Below, one piece after another: positions 2,756-33,382 of a DNA stretch of 33,512 nucleotides. The notes below the pieces were generated by a model, which saw only the letters and a program-made list of their open reading frames with translations, was not told where the DNA came from and did not search any database. How positions within the stretch are numbered: the first letter of the stretch is position 1; each line of letters begins with the position of its first letter. The translations under genes and the position numbers were made by a program. The stretch comes from Clostridia bacterium (GTDB taxonomy: Bacteria > Bacillota > Clostridia > Lachnospirales > Lachnospiraceae). The stretch spans positions 1 to 33,512 of the forward strand of contig CAJTDE010000042.1 in assembly GCA_910574835.1 (NCBI GenBank), given 5' to 3'.

Positions 2756-3092
2756 GGGCTTGTACTGGTTTCGACGGGGGTCTCGCAGCTGGTGAAGCTA
2801 TCCGCAGGCGATGCGTCAAATCGCAAATCTAAATATAAACGCTGAAGACAATTTAGCATACGCTGCCTAATGGCAGCTGTCGGCCTTAGAGCACCTGCAC
2901 TTTAAGAATCCGGCATCGACTATGCAGGAAACGACTTGCGTTAAGCTTTGCGCGCATGGGCGTATGATGAAGCTACTAAAGCCGTCAGGGTGTTAGTTCC
3001 CGGTCGGTGGAGGGAATGTCAAAGAACTGACTATGATAGTAGAAGAACAGGGAACAGGCTTTCGGACAGGGGTTCGATTCCCCTCAGGTCCA
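2756..3092 (+). ncRNA. ssrA: Transfer-messenger RNA (tmRNA)
   Basis: tmRNA rescues ribosomes stalled on broken messages by acting first as alanyl-tRNA and then as a template for a degradation tag. The 5' part reads GGGCTTGTACTGGTTTCGAC, a hallmark of one-piece tmRNA. The 3' end has a T-arm (AGGGG-TTCGATT-CCCCT) followed by CAGGTCC, which forms seven acceptor pairs with GGGCTTG at the 5' end. The discriminator is A3092 and CCA is not encoded. The tag frame is 2841-2870 and translates to AEDNLAYAA followed by TAA, ending in the usual hydrophobic residues plus AA. Promoter and terminator are both visible. Ends were set from the acceptor stem. Confidence 0.97.
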
Positions 3093-3101
3093 TTACTAAA
3101 T

Positions 3102-19565: not shown

Positions 19566-21449
19566 TTAAACCGGCAGCAGATCCGGTTCTTTTTTTCGAA
19601 TATAAGATTCCAGAGTGCTCTGATCGATAAGGGCGGGCGTAACACCTTCCCTGGAGACACAAAAGCCCGCGGCGTATGTGGCAATTCGAATGGTATTGCT
19701 GAGTGAAAACCCTTTTTGCAGATAAACGGCCAGCGTACAGATAAAAGCGTCGCCGGCTCCCGTATTGTCTACGGCCAAAAAGTTCTGAGCAGGAAAATAT
19801 TCCTCCTCCTGCCGGGTTTTCAGATAGCACCCCTGTTCTCCCAGTGTGATAATCACTGTTTCCACCCCGGCATTCAAAAAGGTATCCGCCTGTTCTCTCA
19901 GGCTTTTTCCGGGACATAAGATATTGATTTCCTTCTGATTGGGTACCAGAATATCTACATATTTTAAAAGCTCCGGCTCGATGAAGGAGCAGGCGGAGGG
20001 TTTTAAAATGGTTTTGACACCGTACTTATAGGCTGTCCTTCCGGCCTGGATCAGCACATCATGAGGAATCTCTGTCTGGAACAGGCAGTAGCCGCTGTCC
20101 TTAAAAGCATCCTCATTACGAAGAATATCCTCCGGGCACAGGGTGGCATTGGCGCCGGAGAGGATAGAAATCATAGAGTTTCCGTCCGGCTGTACAAAAA
20201 TATAGGCTTTTCCGGTGGCCGTATCCGGACATCGGCGGATGCTGCCGGAGTGAATGGCATGCTTATCCAGAGCGGCAAAAATATGGTTGGCATCCATGTC
20301 ATTTCCTACGGCTCCAATCAATGCCACACGAGAGCCGAGGAGGGAAGCGCCAATGGATTGATTGATGCCCTTGCCTCCCGGAAAGAGGGAAAAGTCCGTT
20401 GTAGACACGGTTTTTCCTGTGACGGGAAGCTCCTGAACCTTCAGATAGTTATCAATATTGATACTGCCCACGACCGTCAGCTTCCTTAAGGTGTGAAGTG
20501 GCGGAACGGACAGGTACTCCTTATGCTCGATTGAAAGATCTGCCTCAAACCTTGGTACAGGCCCTTTGTCCTCCGCTAAATGAATCACACTTTGACACAG
20601 ATGACGCCCATAGTACAAATAGGGGATCATAATAGTAGAAATAGGAAGAAAATCAAAAGCTTCCTGGGTATCCTTCCGCAGAGAGAGAAGAGTAATGTCC
20701 CGGGGCACATGGAAATGCAGATGATTCAGCCGTTCATAAAGCCGGAGTCCGGTGGAAAAGGCGGAGCAGACAATTCCTGTGACAGCCCGGGATGCGATAC
20801 AATCAATCAAGTGATCATTGAGTGTATGAAAAACCAGCTGTTCCTGAAAAGGGATGCCTTTGTCAAGAAAGCATTGCCGGTATCCGGCCAAAAACTGCTC
20901 CGTATAATCTTCATGGGATAAGAGGCAGGCAATATTGCGGTGATTGGCTTCAATCAAAGCAGAGGCGGCCGTAAAGCCTATTTTGAAAAAATCAATATTG
21001 CAGGCGTCCGCGATAGAAAGAGAATGGAAGGGCAGATAGGGAATCTCAGCTTCCTCCAGAATGGAACCGTTTAAAAGGCTGTCTTTACTCAGCGGTTCCC
21101 AAAGAACGGCGTCCACGTGATGCTGCCGGAATTTGTGGAGCGCCTTTTGCTCTGCCAAAGGGTCTTTTCCTGTTTCACCGATAAGAACCGCATAGCCTTT
21201 GCTCCGGGCTGCCTCTAAAATTCCTTTTAGAGTATTGTTGGATTCACAGGAGCGAACAAGCAGTCCCAGGAGAAAAGAGCGTCCGCTGCTTCCCGGTGTG
21301 TGTGAGTACGGCGCATAATTAAATTCTTTAATAATTCTAAGAACCCGCTCCCTGGTTTCGGCGCTGATGCTGGCGTCCTTCTGATTCATAATTTTTGATA
21401 CGGTGGAAATGGACACACCGGCCATCTGTGCAATTTCTTTGATTGTCAT
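19566..21449 (-). CDS. LacI-family regulator fused to a PfkB/ribokinase-type sugar kinase
   Basis: A continuous 627-residue protein. Residues 1-50 are a LacI helix-turn-helix (MTIKEIAQMAGVSISTVSKIMNQ). Residues 55-315 resemble the periplasmic-binding-protein-like effector domain of LacI regulators. Residues 323-627 are a complete PfkB kinase: VVGSINIDNYL (substrate region), FPGGKGINQSIGASLLG (first signature) and DNTGAGDAF at 561-569 with catalytic D567. No stop or frameshift separates the parts. The ATG follows GGGAG. It diverges from the nucleoside-uptake genes, and palindromes resembling LacI operators lie in the shared region. Kinase chemistry on ribose or a related sugar and repression of the divergent operon are inferred. 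Confidence 0.93.
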   Translation of the reverse strand: MTIKEIAQMAGVSISTVSKIMNQKDASISAETRERVLRIIKEFNYAPYSHTPGSSGRSFLLGLLVRSCESNNTLKGILEAARSKGYAVLIGETGKDPLAEQKALHKFRQHHVDAVLWEPLSKDSLLNGSILEEAEIPYLPFHSLSIADACNIDFFKIGFTAASALIEANHRNIACLLSHEDYTEQFLAGYRQCFLDKGIPFQEQLVFHTLNDHLIDCIASRAVTGIVCSAFSTGLRLYERLNHLHFHVPRDITLLSLRKDTQEAFDFLPISTIMIPYLYYGRHLCQSVIHLAEDKGPVPRFEADLSIEHKEYLSVPPLHTLRKLTVVGSINIDNYLKVQELPVTGKTVSTTDFSLFPGGKGINQSIGASLLGSRVALIGAVGNDMDANHIFAALDKHAIHSGSIRRCPDTATGKAYIFVQPDGNSMISILSGANATLCPEDILRNEDAFKDSGYCLFQTEIPHDVLIQAGRTAYKYGVKTILKPSACSFIEPELLKYVDILVPNQKEINILCPGKSLREQADTFLNAGVETVIITLGEQGCYLKTRQEEEYFPAQNFLAVDNTGAGDAFICTLAVYLQKGFSLSNTIRIATYAAGFCVSREGVTPALIDQSTLESYIRKKEPDLLPV

Positions 21450-28803: not shown

Positions 28804-28826
28804 AAATAGTAGGAATTAAAAATCAG

Positions 28827-28916
28827 TAATATCCTGACAGTGCACAAATCAATTTACAGGCGCAGCATTAAGCGGCCGGGAATTGATTTAGATCAGGGTG
28901 TGCCGGAAGGATATTA
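28827..28916 (-). repeat. Palindromic dispersed repeat, copy 2, in a 90-base hairpin
   Basis: TAATATCC pairs with GGATATTA at the outside (28827-28834 with 28909-28916), GCAC with GTGC further in, and AAATCAATT with AATTGATTT (28846-28854 with 28881-28889). The core, read on minus, resembles 667-712 including the GGCCG and CTGTAAATTGATTT parts. It fills the gap before the GATase-like gene, where it could act as a leader structure or just be an inserted repeat. Confidence 0.65.
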
Positions 28917-28942
28917 TGGAACTAAGATAAGGAGATTGAACA

Positions 28943-29689
28943 ATGGCAAAAAAAATACTTTTAGCAGGAGAATCCTGGATGAGCCACACAACTCATGTAA
29001 AAGGCTTTGACACATTTTTTACTTCCGTATATGAGACAGGCGAGCAGTATCTGAAGGCAGCTATGGAGCGCGGAGGCTATGACTTTACCTTCCTTCCCAA
29101 CCATCTGGCTATGGAGGAGTTCCCCTTTACCCTGGAGGAGCTTAAAGAGTATGATCTGATTATCCTTTCCGATATCGGTGCGAACACCCTGCTTCTGCCC
29201 ACGGCAACCTTTACCAGAAGCGAGATGAAGCCCAACCGCTGTAACCTTATCCGTGATTACGTTCTGCAGGGCGGTTCACTTCTGATGGTAGGCGGCTACA
29301 TGACCTTCTCCGGTGTAGATGCAAAGGGCAAATGGCAGGATACCGCCGTACAGGAGGTGCTTCCCGTTACCGTTCTTTCCGTTGACGACAGAATGGAGCA
29401 CTGCGAGGGCGTTCGTCCCGTAACCGTAAAGGAGCATCCCGTATTGAAGGGACTTGGCGAGTGGCCGAGAGTGCTTGGCTACAATAAGACTGTAATCCGT
29501 GACGGCGCAGAACTTCTTGCAACTGTGGAGGAAGATCCTTTTATCGCTCTTGGAACCTATGGCGAGGGACGTTCCGCCGTATTTACAACGGACTGTGCGC
29601 CTCACTGGGCGCCGCCTGAGTTCTGCGAGTGGGAAGGCTATGACGTGCTGTTCCAGAATCTGGCAAAGTGGCTGACAAAGGAAATCTAA
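28943..29689 (+). CDS. GATase1-like (DUF1355/ThuA-type) protein
   Basis: A protein of 248 residues with a flavodoxin-like Rossmann layout: KKILLAGESWMSHTTHVKGFDTFF at the start, then YDLIILSDIGANTLLLP, LIRDYVLQGGSLLMVGGYMTFSGVDAKGKWQDT, and FIALGTYGEGRSAVFTTDCAPHWAPPEFCEWEGY. This pattern fits the putative glutamine amidotransferase family DUF1355. I do not see the usual nucleophile-elbow Cys of true amidotransferases, so amidotransferase activity is doubtful. AGGAG lies before the ATG. It sits between two M20 peptidase genes, which suggests handling of the same unknown compound. Confidence 0.8.
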   Translation: MAKKILLAGESWMSHTTHVKGFDTFFTSVYETGEQYLKAAMERGGYDFTFLPNHLAMEEFPFTLEELKEYDLIILSDIGANTLLLPTATFTRSEMKPNRCNLIRDYVLQGGSLLMVGGYMTFSGVDAKGKWQDTAVQEVLPVTVLSVDDRMEHCEGVRPVTVKEHPVLKGLGEWPRVLGYNKTVIRDGAELLATVEEDPFIALGTYGEGRSAVFTTDCAPHWAPPEFCEWEGYDVLFQNLAKWLTKEI

Positions 29690-29732: not shown

Positions 29733-29861
29733 TGGTAAAGCCGCAAAGGCGCACGAGAGAAACTTTTATGAGTGCCCTTTCGAATAAAAGTTTCTCACAT
29801 CACAGGTGTGTCGAAGCGGCTTTACCCTTTAGTGCCGTCGCGCAGCGACTACAATAGGGGG
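29733..29861 (+). ncRNA. Structured 129-base repeat element, copy 1 (possible leader RNA)
   Basis: An outer stem GGTAAAGCCGC/GCGGCTTTACC (29734-29744 with 29816-29826) encloses a second stem GGCGCAC/GTGTGTC (29748-29754 with 29806-29812) and a 13-pair hairpin GAGAAACTTTTAT/ATAAAAGTTTCTC (29757-29769 with 29784-29796). A small hairpin GTCGC-GCA-GCGAC (29837-29849) follows just before the ribosome site. The copy at 32189-32317 differs at ten of 129 positions and keeps every stem. The element ends in the Shine-Dalgarno sequence of the next gene. I do not recognise it as a known riboswitch or ribozyme class. Confidence 0.75.
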
Positions 29862-29868
29862 AAGTACA

Positions 29869-30999
29869 TTGGAAAATAAGGCTTTGAATTTGTTAAAAGC
29901 GCTGCTTGAGATTCCGTCCGTAAATTCCAAAGATCGGGAAAGCCGGGTGGCCGAATACCTGGCGGATTACTTTCAGAAGCATGGGATAGAGTCTTGTGTT
30001 CAGTATCTGGATGAAAACCATGCAAATGTGCTGGCTTATATACCGGGAACGGATTCCGGCCGGCGTATGATCTGGAACGGACATTTGGATACGGTACCTT
30101 ATGGTAATTTGGAGGAATGGAAGACCGATCCGGCAGCGGCCGTTCTAAAGGATGGCAGGCTTTTTGCCCGAGGTGCTTCGGACATGAAAAGTGGGTTGGC
30201 AGCTATGGTGTATGCGCTGTGTCATACACCGGAGCCGCCGGCTTATGATATTCAATTTATCGGAACCTGTGACGAGGAGAAGAATGGCCTGGGCGCGTCG
30301 TCAGTCCTTAAGGACGGAATGATGGATGCGGAATACCTTTTGGTGGGTGAACCGACGAATATGAGTCTGGGAGTTGCACAAAAGGGGTGTCTCTGGCTTG
30401 AGATTCGCACAAAGGGAAGGACCAGTCACGGAGCCTATCCCCAGGAGGGAATCAACGCGGTAGACTATGGAGTGGAGCTGGCGTCAGGGCTTAAGGCTTA
30501 TGTACAAAGCTTTACCTCTCAGATCCTTGGAGCGTCTACGGCGCAGATTACCATGATTCAGGGCGGCGTGGCTATGAATATGACGCCGGACGAGTGCGGG
30601 ATTCGAATGGATATTCGCATGGTTCCCGGGCTGACAAAAGAGATGGTGCTTGAGAAGGCCGAAGAGCTTCTTTTGAAGGAGCAGGAAAAGGAACCCGGTT
30701 TTGCGGCGGAATTTGCCGTTTTAAACGATCGCCGGGCCATTGAGATTGACAGCCGAGACTGGCTGCCTTCAACTCTTCGCAGGCTTCTTCAATCATATGG
30801 ATACGAAGGAAGCGATATCGGCGTCAATTTCTTTACGGATGCTTCCGTTTTGGACCGGGCGGGAGAAAAGAAGATTCTGCTGTTTGGACCAGGGGAGCCG
30901 TCTATGGCACATAAGCCCAATGAATATGTCAGCGTGAAGAAATATGAGGATGCAATTCAGGTACTGCAGAAATTGATGCGGCAGAAAATGCCCGGATAG
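29869..30999 (+). CDS. M20-family metallopeptidase/deacylase, second copy
   Basis: A protein of 376 residues of the ArgE/DapE group, shorter than the copy at 27523 and clearly diverged from it. Active-site residues are H72 in WNGHLDTVP, D105 in RGASDMKSG and E136-E137 in TCDEEKNG; LVGEPTN and the lid domain with TKGRTSHGAYPQEGINAV are typical. The C-terminal FGPGEPSMAHKPNEYVSVKKYEDA supplies the last metal-binding histidine. The start is TTG at 29869 behind AGGGGGAAG. The structured repeat lies immediately upstream. The family cleaves N-acyl or N-succinyl amino acids and peptides; the substrate here is unknown. Confidence 0.9.
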   Translation: MENKALNLLKALLEIPSVNSKDRESRVAEYLADYFQKHGIESCVQYLDENHANVLAYIPGTDSGRRMIWNGHLDTVPYGNLEEWKTDPAAAVLKDGRLFARGASDMKSGLAAMVYALCHTPEPPAYDIQFIGTCDEEKNGLGASSVLKDGMMDAEYLLVGEPTNMSLGVAQKGCLWLEIRTKGRTSHGAYPQEGINAVDYGVELASGLKAYVQSFTSQILGASTAQITMIQGGVAMNMTPDECGIRMDIRMVPGLTKEMVLEKAEELLLKEQEKEPGFAAEFAVLNDRRAIEIDSRDWLPSTLRRLLQSYGYEGSDIGVNFFTDASVLDRAGEKKILLFGPGEPSMAHKPNEYVSVKKYEDAIQVLQKLMRQKMPG

Positions 31000-31010
31000 A
31001 ATTATGTTGC

Positions 31011-31039
31011 TTGTCATGAAATGAACAGTATGGTATGAT
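31011..31039 (+). promoter_or_regulatory. Promoter of the ribokinase gene
   Basis: TTGTCA (31011-31016) and TATGAT (31034-31039) are spaced by exactly 17 bases and lie about 30 bases before the ATG, just after the stop of the M20 gene. The kinase may therefore be expressed separately from the upstream operon. Confidence 0.7.
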
Positions 31040-31068
31040 GTTATGGAAAAAAAGAAGGAGAACGGGTA

Positions 31069-31971
31069 ATGAAGGTAATCTGTTTTGGCTCATTGAATAT
31101 TGATTATACGTATAAGGTGGATCATTTTGTACAAAAAGGGGAGACGCTGTCTTCCGATTCCCTTCAAGTTTTCAGCGGCGGGAAAGGATTGAATCAGTCG
31201 ATAGCGCTGGCCAAGGCGGGTGTTGAGACCTGGCATGCAGGCTCCATCGGAGAGGACGGAAGATTTCTTTTAAAGCAGATGGAGGATGCCGGTGTCAATA
31301 CGGACTGTGTTACTATTTTGACTGACACAAGAACCGGCAATGCAATCATTCAGAATGACAAAGAGGGAGACAACTGTATCCTTCTTTATGGCGGGGCAAA
31401 CCAGGCCATTACCAGGGAGCAGGTGGACGAAGTTATGGGCCGCTGCGAGAAAGGGGATTTCCTGGTACTGCAAAATGAGATCAATGAGCTGACCTATATT
31501 GTGGAACAGGCTCATGAAAAAGGGCTTAAGATTGTGCTGAATCCTTCGCCTATGAATGAAAAGATCCGCAGGCTGCCGCTTGCGTATGTGGACTATTTTA
31601 TGCTCAATGAGATCGAAGCGGGACAGATCCTAAATCGGGAGATTCAGGAAGGCTTTGACAAGGAAGAGCTTGGTAGGGCCTTAATGGAGTGCTTCCCCAA
31701 TGCGGTGATAGTATTGACCCTGGGAAAAGAGGGCGCTATCTATATGGATCAGAATGAGACCTTTACGCAGTCCTCTTACAAGGTGAAGGCTGTGGATACC
31801 ACAGCTGCCGGGGATACTTTTACCGGATACTTTATCGGAGGAATCTTAAGAGGGCTTCCTGTTCGGGAGGCTATGGATATGGCGTCCCGCGCTTCAGCCA
31901 TTGCCGTGACGAGGCTGGGGGCTTCGCCCTCAATTCCGGTTTTAAAGGAAGTAGAGGAGATTTCGTTTTGA
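31069..31971 (+). CDS. rbsK: Ribokinase (PfkB family)
   Basis: Phosphorylates ribose released by the nucleoside hydrolase to ribose 5-phosphate. The 300-residue protein has GSLNIDYTYKVDHFVQKGET, the first PfkB signature FSGGKGLNQSIALAKAG and the catalytic loop DTTAAGDTFTGYF (243-255, base D249). The AAGD form and the C-terminal AIAVTRLGASPSIP closely follow Escherichia coli ribokinase. AAGGAG precedes the ATG. It has its own promoter and a terminator after it. It is a paralogue of the kinase half of the protein at 19566. Confidence 0.88.
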   Translation: MKVICFGSLNIDYTYKVDHFVQKGETLSSDSLQVFSGGKGLNQSIALAKAGVETWHAGSIGEDGRFLLKQMEDAGVNTDCVTILTDTRTGNAIIQNDKEGDNCILLYGGANQAITREQVDEVMGRCEKGDFLVLQNEINELTYIVEQAHEKGLKIVLNPSPMNEKIRRLPLAYVDYFMLNEIEAGQILNREIQEGFDKEELGRALMECFPNAVIVLTLGKEGAIYMDQNETFTQSSYKVKAVDTTAAGDTFTGYFIGGILRGLPVREAMDMASRASAIAVTRLGASPSIPVLKEVEEISF

Positions 31972-32032
31972 TACATAAGTAAAATAAGCGTGTCGGCTTT
32001 ACGCTTGGCGCGCTGTCAAAGAAAAGGAAGCG

Positions 32033-32064
32033 AAGGGATGTGGCGGCTGCCATGTCCCTTTTCT
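32033..32064 (+). terminator. Rho-independent terminator after the ribokinase gene
   Basis: AAGGGATGTGGC (32033-32044) pairs with GCCATGTCCCTT (32049-32060), twelve pairs including two G-U, around GGCT, followed by TTCT. Confidence 0.75.
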
Positions 32065-32188
32065 AAATGGCGCTGTGTCCGGAAGTCTCTGAGAGTATCA
32101 GGAAAAAATAGCGGTTGATATTTTTACAGGGATGTGATAGGAATATAGACAGTAGATAAAAAAGAGCTGTATCGTAGCGACTAGAGTC

Positions 32189-32317
32189 TGGTAAAGTCGC
32201 AAAGGCGCACGAGAGGAACTTTTATGAGTGCCCTTTCGAATAAAAGTTTCTCTCATCACAGGTGCGCCGAAGCGACTTTACCCTTCAGTGCCGTCGCGCA
32301 GCGACTCAAATAGGAGG
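32189..32317 (+). ncRNA. Structured 129-base repeat element, copy 2 (possible leader RNA)
   Basis: Same fold and length as the copy at 29733. The outer stem is GGTAAAGTCGC/GCGACTTTACC (32190-32200 with 32272-32282): a C-G pair of copy 1 is replaced by T-A, a compensatory change. In the second stem the partner reads GTGCGCC, turning two G-U pairs into G-C; in the long hairpin one A-U becomes G-U. The terminal hairpin and the AGGAGG at the 3' end are kept. The degV start codon lies nine bases after the element. Confidence 0.75.
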
Positions 32318-32325
32318 TTTATATT

Positions 32326-33174
32326 ATGGCAGTAAAGCTGGTAGTGGATTCTGCATCGGATATTGATTTGAAGGAAGCGGAAGCGCTGGGTGTTCATATG
32401 ATACCCATGTCCATCCAATTTGGAGATAAGACCTATGCGGATGGCATCGATCTGTCCGGCACGGCATTTTTTGAGAAGCTCATAGAGAGCAGCGAGCTTC
32501 CCACCACAAGCCAAATCACTATGTTTCAATTTGAGGAATGTTTTACCGAGCTTACGGCGGATGGCAGTGAGGTGGTTGTAATCACCTTATCCTCCAAGCT
32601 TTCCGGAACCTATGCGGGAGCCGTATCCGCGGCGCGCTCCTTCCCGGGAAAGGTGTTTGTGGTAGACAGTCTCAATGTATGTATCGGGGAGCGGATTCTG
32701 ATTCAATATGCGGTTCGGCTTCTAAAGGAAGGACTTACTGCAAAGGAGCTGGAAGAGAGGCTTCTAGAGGCTCGAAAGCGGATAAAACTTATGGCCCTTC
32801 TGAGCACACTGGAATATCTCCAAAAGGGAGGAAGAATCTCTGCGGCTGTGGCTATGTCCGGCGCTGTTCTACATATTAAACCGGTTATTTCCATTGAGGA
32901 TGGAGAGGTCAAGATGATAGGAAAGGCTATGGGTTCGAAAAAGGGAAATAACCTTTTGATGCAGCTTATAAGCAAGTCCGGCGGTATTGACTTTGAGATG
33001 CCTTATGCGACGGCATATTCAGGCCTTGAGGACAGCCTTTTGAAGAAATATCTGAGGGACAGCGCATTTCTCTGGGAAGATGAGATTGGTGAGATTCCTT
33101 CCTACTGTATCGGAAGCACCATCGGAACCCATGTGGGACCGGGGGCGATTGCGGTAGCATTTTTTGCAAAATAA
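32326..33174 (+). CDS. DegV family protein (FakB-type fatty-acid-binding)
   Basis: A protein of 282 residues. DegV/FakB proteins bind a fatty acid and present it to the kinase FakA for phosphorylation and entry into phospholipid synthesis. The N-terminal VVDSASDIDLKEAEALGVHMIPMSIQFGDKTYADGIDLSGTAFFEKL and TTSQITMFQFEECF, the middle LSSKLSGTYAGAVSAA, LEYLQKGGRIS and the C-terminal IGSTIGTHVGPGAIAVAFF are standard for the family. AGGAGG at the end of the structured repeat serves as ribosome site. No fakA lies in the window. The link to the fatty-acid cluster is functional only; the genes are 16 kb apart. Confidence 0.92.
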   Translation: MAVKLVVDSASDIDLKEAEALGVHMIPMSIQFGDKTYADGIDLSGTAFFEKLIESSELPTTSQITMFQFEECFTELTADGSEVVVITLSSKLSGTYAGAVSAARSFPGKVFVVDSLNVCIGERILIQYAVRLLKEGLTAKELEERLLEARKRIKLMALLSTLEYLQKGGRISAAVAMSGAVLHIKPVISIEDGEVKMIGKAMGSKKGNNLLMQLISKSGGIDFEMPYATAYSGLEDSLLKKYLRDSAFLWEDEIGEIPSYCIGSTIGTHVGPGAIAVAFFAK

Positions 33175-33201: not shown

Positions 33202-33343
33202 GTTACTGTTCACCCCGTGATCGGCAACACGCTTCGCGATGCACAGAAATCGCAAAAAGATGCGATTTTGCGCTGAAAAACTCGGGATTTCCGCACAAAA
33301 TGTGCGGAAACACCTCGCGGAACTGTGGTGTGTGAACAGTAAC
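33202..33343. repeat. Multi-hairpin intergenic element bounded by inverted 12-bp repeats
   Basis: GTTACTGTTCAC (33202-33213) and GTGAACAGTAAC (33332-33343) are exact reverse complements. The left end also forms a complete copy of the 27-bp palindrome (33202-33228). Inside are two perfect hairpins: AAATCGCA/TGCGATTT (33247-33254 with 33261-33268) and TTTCCGCACA/TGTGCGGAAA (33288-33297 with 33301-33310). No coding capacity is present. It looks like a small non-autonomous mobile or repetitive element after degV. Confidence 0.7.
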
Positions 33344-33382
33344 TGACCGGTAGCATTAGATCATCCGAAGCTGACGGAAGTA

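Follow-up and report, generated by a model that had tools for sequence, protein, structure and literature searches.

The two 129-base repeats that stand in front of an M20 peptidase gene and degV in a Clostridia genome are members of a large family of structured elements, rather than a two-copy riboswitch. This family (B) is accompanied by a second (C), and both are very probably mobile elements placed at Shine–Dalgarno (SD) sites. Overall, we see an even prospect that they are non-autonomous, SD-targeted mobile leaders, probably copied from RNA, like SINEs; taken by itself, copying through RNA would come close to an even chance. Element B is 118 nt in length, and often has a 5′ hairpin (A; AG/TCCGGC...GCCGGC) directly in front. 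Element C is a second structured family, with a hairpin-like fold of ~100 nt (GTAATATCC...GGATATTACGGAACTGGAATAG) and its 3′ end at the SD.

The window (the whole stretch of 33,512 nucleotides that was analysed) contains two copies of each element. As the initial annotation described, the two repeats, at 29733–29861 and 32189–32317, are equal in length, differ at ten positions, lie in the sense orientation and end in an SD. The first contains a 118-nt B unit at 29734–29851 (+; L001:1507-1624) formed by P1, P2, P3 and a 3′ tail hairpin, and hairpin A is not seen in front of it. The restored SD, AATAGGGGG, lies at 29853–29861 (+), and the M20 peptidase gene (29869–30999, +) begins with the TTG at 29869. 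The 118-nt unit of the second is at 32190–32307 (+; L017:1502-1619), followed by the restored SD AATAGGAGG at 32309–32317 (+) and the degV gene (32326–33174, +) with ATG at 32326. The claim that every stem difference keeps the pairing was slightly overstated. Four of the five do so (C-G/T-A in P1, two G-U/G-C in P2 and A-U/G-U in P3), while the A at 29797 of the first copy creates an A-A in P3 where the second has A-U. Both copies fold far better than their shuffled sequences (z = −5.93 and −6.78, respectively). The two C copies, absent from the earlier list of features, are found at 28826–28923 (+, 82.6 bits), followed by the SD AAGGAGA and the ATG at 28943 of a GATase1_like gene, and at 634–732 (−, 68.6 bits), before a 69-aa minus-strand reading frame starting near 614. 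Elsewhere in the window, a palindromic stretch identified by eye (GTTACTGTTCAC...GTGAACAGTAAC, 33203–33345) lies just downstream of degV, and a protein encoded at 19566–21449 (−) combines LacI HTH, periplasmic-binding and PfkB sugar-kinase domains as a regulator-kinase fusion. A repeat of ~106 bp occurs at both ends of the contig (5–109 and 33406–33511) and at the start of another (L238 1-106); it could be a mobile element that caused the assembly to break.

How numerous are the elements, and where do they lie? Searched at the DNA level, the own genome (5.0 Mb in 133 contigs) yields 86 matches to B, 54 of them 99 nt or longer; this is a lower bound, as scoring was limited to 40 of the 166 candidate stretches. 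We read 44 arrays around these matches. A start codon in sense, opening at least 60 codons, lies behind 43 of them, some of these calls being weak (e.g. C5_8300); the array C9_60000:11567 is without any. Two to four full or partial units are present in 17 of the 44, head-to-tail arrays occur among the B copies, and several of the junctions between units have no SD and are specific to their array. Our sample, 433.5 kb in all, consisted of the window and twenty 20-kb stretches at round-number positions. It was scanned with covariance models R1 for B and R2 for C (the latter including the window), the two B copies of the window being added by hand. This yielded 43 copies in 31 arrays, from which we estimate by proportion some 350 arrays in the genome. 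With open reading frames called mechanically throughout, 29 of the 31 arrays have a start codon with SD 12–29 nt downstream in sense, the two exceptions being L226:3290 and the weak match L233:10899. By comparison, 295 of 4000 random positions (7.4%) fall within 30 nt of a start, and 620 of 4000 within 60 nt. A looser BLAST cut placed 33 of 37 arrays of the own sample within 45 nt of a start. In a second genome (G005) this holds for 28 of 30, and one of the exceptions meets the end of its stretch; the sample from G028 gave one weak match, too few copies for repeating the statistics. The pattern proposed earlier as speaking against a leader, with copies in both orientations and downstream of genes, is not seen among the arrays. 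In other genomes, 85 of 132 B ends lie before a gene start, 18 before another B and 5 before A; one has an SD only, and of the 23 others ~18 run into conserved unit C, as judged by their tails.

The AGGAGG motif fails to explain these sites alone, as just 120 of the 440 such motifs in the sample precede an open reading frame, so that one has to suppose that insertions elsewhere are selected against. Nor does every repeat of this genome go to SDs. A dispersed family of palindromes of ~200 bp, element D (L222:10365-10583, L226:2198-2411, L235:18972-19176, L238:3130-3325 and L223:19805-20000), begins 6–27 nt past the end of an open reading frame at four of its five places; it is a candidate for a terminator-like element or a MITE.

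Elements B and C fold on the sense strand, with compensatory changes. In an alignment of 55 B units (53 distinct), both sides have changed at 10 of 38 pairs, giving 43 cells compared with 10.9 in shuffled alignments and at most 3 when slid. For 32 C units the corresponding values are 11 of 31 pairs, and 64 cells compared with 17.6 when shuffled and up to 12 when slid; in both cases the shuffles take no account of relatedness, and the same sequences served to derive the structures. Further pair types in B are not in excess over shuffles (24 versus 22.5; 84/500). Cells with G-U outnumber those with A-C by 100:13 in B and 61:3 in C. Counted by distinct pair types the ratios are 12:9, a slight bias, and 14:3. 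Such an excess of G-U over A-C is expected if it is the sense strand that folds. Unpaired parts are also conserved, namely the AAA/GAA internal loop and the P3 loop. The P3 loop contains an ATG at unit positions 35–37 behind the SD-like GAGAGGAA, a possible hidden leader reading frame whose frame is not conserved. This small reading frame was dropped as a coding sequence, as it contains one-base gaps in copies L021, L056 and L032, and the length of the tail before the SD also varies.

All this might be read as a cis-acting regulatory RNA, i.e. a riboswitch or a leader bound by a protein or an sRNA, whose spread and retention were favoured by selection because it controls the translation of many genes. 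The sense placement at the SD, the covariation and the conserved unpaired loops would agree with such a function, yet we consider it an unlikely explanation. The ten downstream genes examined have no common theme: among 43 downstream proteins listed, the ten given NCBIfam names are encoded by murI, nifU, plsX, prfA, polA, proB, cobB and genes for a sigma factor, an aldolase-like and a hisC-like protein. Of the cis-acting leader that the initial annotation considered, the sense-strand fold with covariation and the 5′-leader position at the SD stand, but the shared gene theme does not. No Rfam class matches either: the window (searched at E up to 10) and five further loci that include copies of both elements (E up to 5) gave no hit over a B or C copy; group II intron and domain V models likewise matched none of the copies in the same scans. 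The window search did find a tmRNA gene at 2756–3095 (+). Against a regulatory origin there is also the variable presence of the elements at a given gene between species, where one family may replace the other, and the 5′-truncated copies whose 3′ part alone is still at the SD.

The origin of the elements is revealed by orthologous sites. Of 277 element–gene junctions in the loci fetched, 31 filled junctions are covered by the 44 comparisons that passed a filter, which required a flank continuing almost up to the start in a relative without the element or without one unit; some of these differ solely in tandem number, and some flanks are no more than ~75% identical. In the pair L043/L120, with 99% identical flanks, one site is 173 nt longer by an A-B insertion. 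The empty site reads ttttacag/GAGG and the filled one ttttacag/A-B...AATAG/GAGG. A 5′-truncated B of 52 nt is present in L221 relative to L342 and L356, the flank being otherwise continuous and ~80% identical, and L224:12589/L355 is another clean case with a truncated B. The pair L119/L186 has B, then B plus C, while C plus A-B in L023 compares with C in L282; L301 and L304 have no element at this gene, but their flanks are just 66–69% identical. Further clean cases are L272/L172 and L224:6350/L081. In the clean cases the GAGG of the SD stays with the gene, older elements lie further upstream and the newest is nearest the gene, while the 3′ end of the element, usually AATAG, restores the SD. 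The insertion point can be read cleanly at A-B and B sites; that of C is ambiguous by a few bases at its 5′ junction (AACAG at the filled and AATAG at the empty site). There is no clear target-site duplication, of the kind expected of a MITE, at the A-B and B junctions, where AG alone is shared. At the C site L224:8576, GGAAT flanks the insert on both sides and could be a short target duplication, but GGAAT is also the usual 3′ end of C. Element-free orthologous sites thus show that the alternative raised initially, a repeat inserted before genes, was right as to origin, and polymorphic insertion between relatives is also a trait of MITEs. Compared with the B arrays of the own genome, B is kept at 22 of 26 orthologous genes in G009 (21 by pattern, one by reading), with C at two and neither at two. 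In G005 the pattern finds B at 3 and C at 7 of 21. B is found at none of 14 in G001 by reading (one pattern label being a chance match) and at none of 13 in G003.

Stacking at one site, with the newest unit next to the gene and the junction regenerated, would also be generated by site-specific recombination of small integron-like circles, with the SD as attachment site and AG as crossover. This is very unlikely, as the same recombinase would be needed for two unrelated families, and neither 5′-truncated insertions nor array-specific junctions would be expected from it.

The truncated copies have a marked polarity. Queries spanned the whole unit, so that either kind of loss could be found. Of 49 copies in the own sample 29 are full, 16 have lost 5′ sequence with the 3′ end intact and none has lost the 3′ end only. 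The remaining 4 lack both ends by this scoring, although two of them (L236) are full according to the covariance model. The 38 copies in G005 comprise 25 full, 12 with 5′ loss and one with 3′ loss, and in this last ATAGGAG is still present after the break. The ratio of 5′ to 3′ loss over both genomes is therefore 28:1 as scored, and 24 are 5′-truncated after reading, as four of the 28 (L224:8576, L381:16626, L388:9778 and L383:19308) resemble full copies that have diverged or suffered internal deletions. Internal deletion, not truncation, accounts for some partial units (e.g. L227:15687 and L375:942). An intact 3′ end combined with 5′ truncation is characteristic of SINEs, and its frequency hints at copying through RNA.

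What might move the elements? Of 16 genomes in the genus, eight contain B (at E 1e-4) and these same eight contain C, G015 being included by four weak B matches only. When 199 other genomes drawn from the family were searched with strict filters, both were present in G028 and G199 alone, the latter with one B match. Among the matches listed, the carriers include Lachnospiraceae, Lachnoclostridium, Acetatifactor muris (DSM 23669, a cultured relative that carries B) and [Clostridium] symbiosum. Searches of phages and plasmids and one exact-pattern scan of viral contigs gave no match. DNA transposition by a single-strand or rolling-circle mechanism of the IS200/IS605, REP or Helitron/IS91 type, aimed at a target adjoining GAGG, is rather unlikely as the source of the copies. 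It could account for one fixed end next to a short target motif, for the hairpin located ~9 nt inside the 3′ terminus of B, for the head-to-tail arrays and for the lack of clear target duplication at A-B and B sites; truncations would be early stops of strand transfer and arrays missed terminations, a reading of similarly low probability. Y1 transposases (PF01797) are indeed encoded in the own genome, but Y1_Tnp is missing from the carriers G008, G009 and G015, yet present in the element-free G002, G003 and G013. Inspection by eye revealed no likeness between the ends of 11 IS200-like loci and A, B or C, the Y2 transposase (PF04986) occurs in 3 of the 16 genomes with G005 as the sole carrier among them, and the wobble bias of the sense strand would need another cause. 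The Y1 and Y2 transposases were rejected as drivers. The reverse transcriptase family RVT_1 (PF00078) is present in 6 of 8 carriers (not G006 or G015) and 4 of 8 element-free genomes, and in these draft assemblies its distribution shows no correlation with the elements. The single RVT_1 match of the own genome (L318:820-2394, −) is a 524-aa reverse transcriptase that falls below every curated NCBIfam cut-off. The driver may have been lost from the draft genomes or be of another kind.

For SD-targeted elements copied from RNA we can envisage the following pathway. Both families, B together with the hairpin A at its 5′ end and C, insert in sense at AG/GAGG of the SD of a gene. As the 3′ end of the element rebuilds the SD, the gene is left with a ribosome-binding site and with a target for further insertion. 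We infer that copying starts from the 3′ end of the element; most likely, a leader RNA terminating at its own SD, GGAGG, is reverse-transcribed. This RNA would pair with CCTCC on the antisense strand of another gene, the 3′ end of which would then be extended. Early stops would leave 5′-truncated copies, and head-to-tail templates would give tandem arrays. In its strongest form, which we offer as a tentative reading, the elements would be bacterial SINEs, structured leaders that copy themselves via a borrowed reverse transcriptase into the SDs of other genes, hundreds per genome. The SD would then serve, with the same reserve, as both target and primer through pairing of GGAGG with the antisense CCTCC, and any SD would be a landing site. 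The ribosome-binding site as an address would explain how structured leaders spread genome-wide without breaking genes and, by extrapolation, a copied RNA domain would stand in front of some hundreds of genes. An effect on host gene expression is likely, and as the sites are polymorphic between close species both movement and expression can be tested directly.

How do the elements compare with known systems? We know of no SINE-like retroposon described in bacteria, and no description of A, B or C was found in the open-licence literature. Group II introns are bacterial retroelements with structured RNA; the element copies scanned, in contrast, match no group II intron model. The BOX, RUP and SPRITE repeats of Streptococcus pneumoniae are, like our elements, small, dispersed, modular, clustered and inserted into one another; they are over-represented between convergent genes and were read by the authors as parasitic (PMC3049150), whereas A, B and C occupy SD sites and face the gene in sense. 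Short structured repeats in many copies per genome are also known as REP elements with TnpA-REP/RAYT, but these are described as palindromes of 20–40 bp (PMC3733652, PMC6006769, PMC8266576), unlike the 100–170-nt folds found here, and the Y1 transposase does not track our elements. The TAACTGA repeats of Beggiatoaceae, heptamers that overlap the ribosome-binding site, are mostly forward and just upstream of start codons, like the present elements, and canonical SDs are rare beside them (PMC4679880). Eukaryotic SINEs and LINEs are copied by target-primed reverse transcription (PMC12503042). The bacterial host, the SD target and the lack of a known partner reverse transcriptase set the A, B and C elements apart from these. 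Yet SINEs are non-autonomous, with an intact 3′ end and frequent 5′ truncation, traits that our elements share, and if the latter are copied via RNA they would be a SINE-like retroposon in bacteria.
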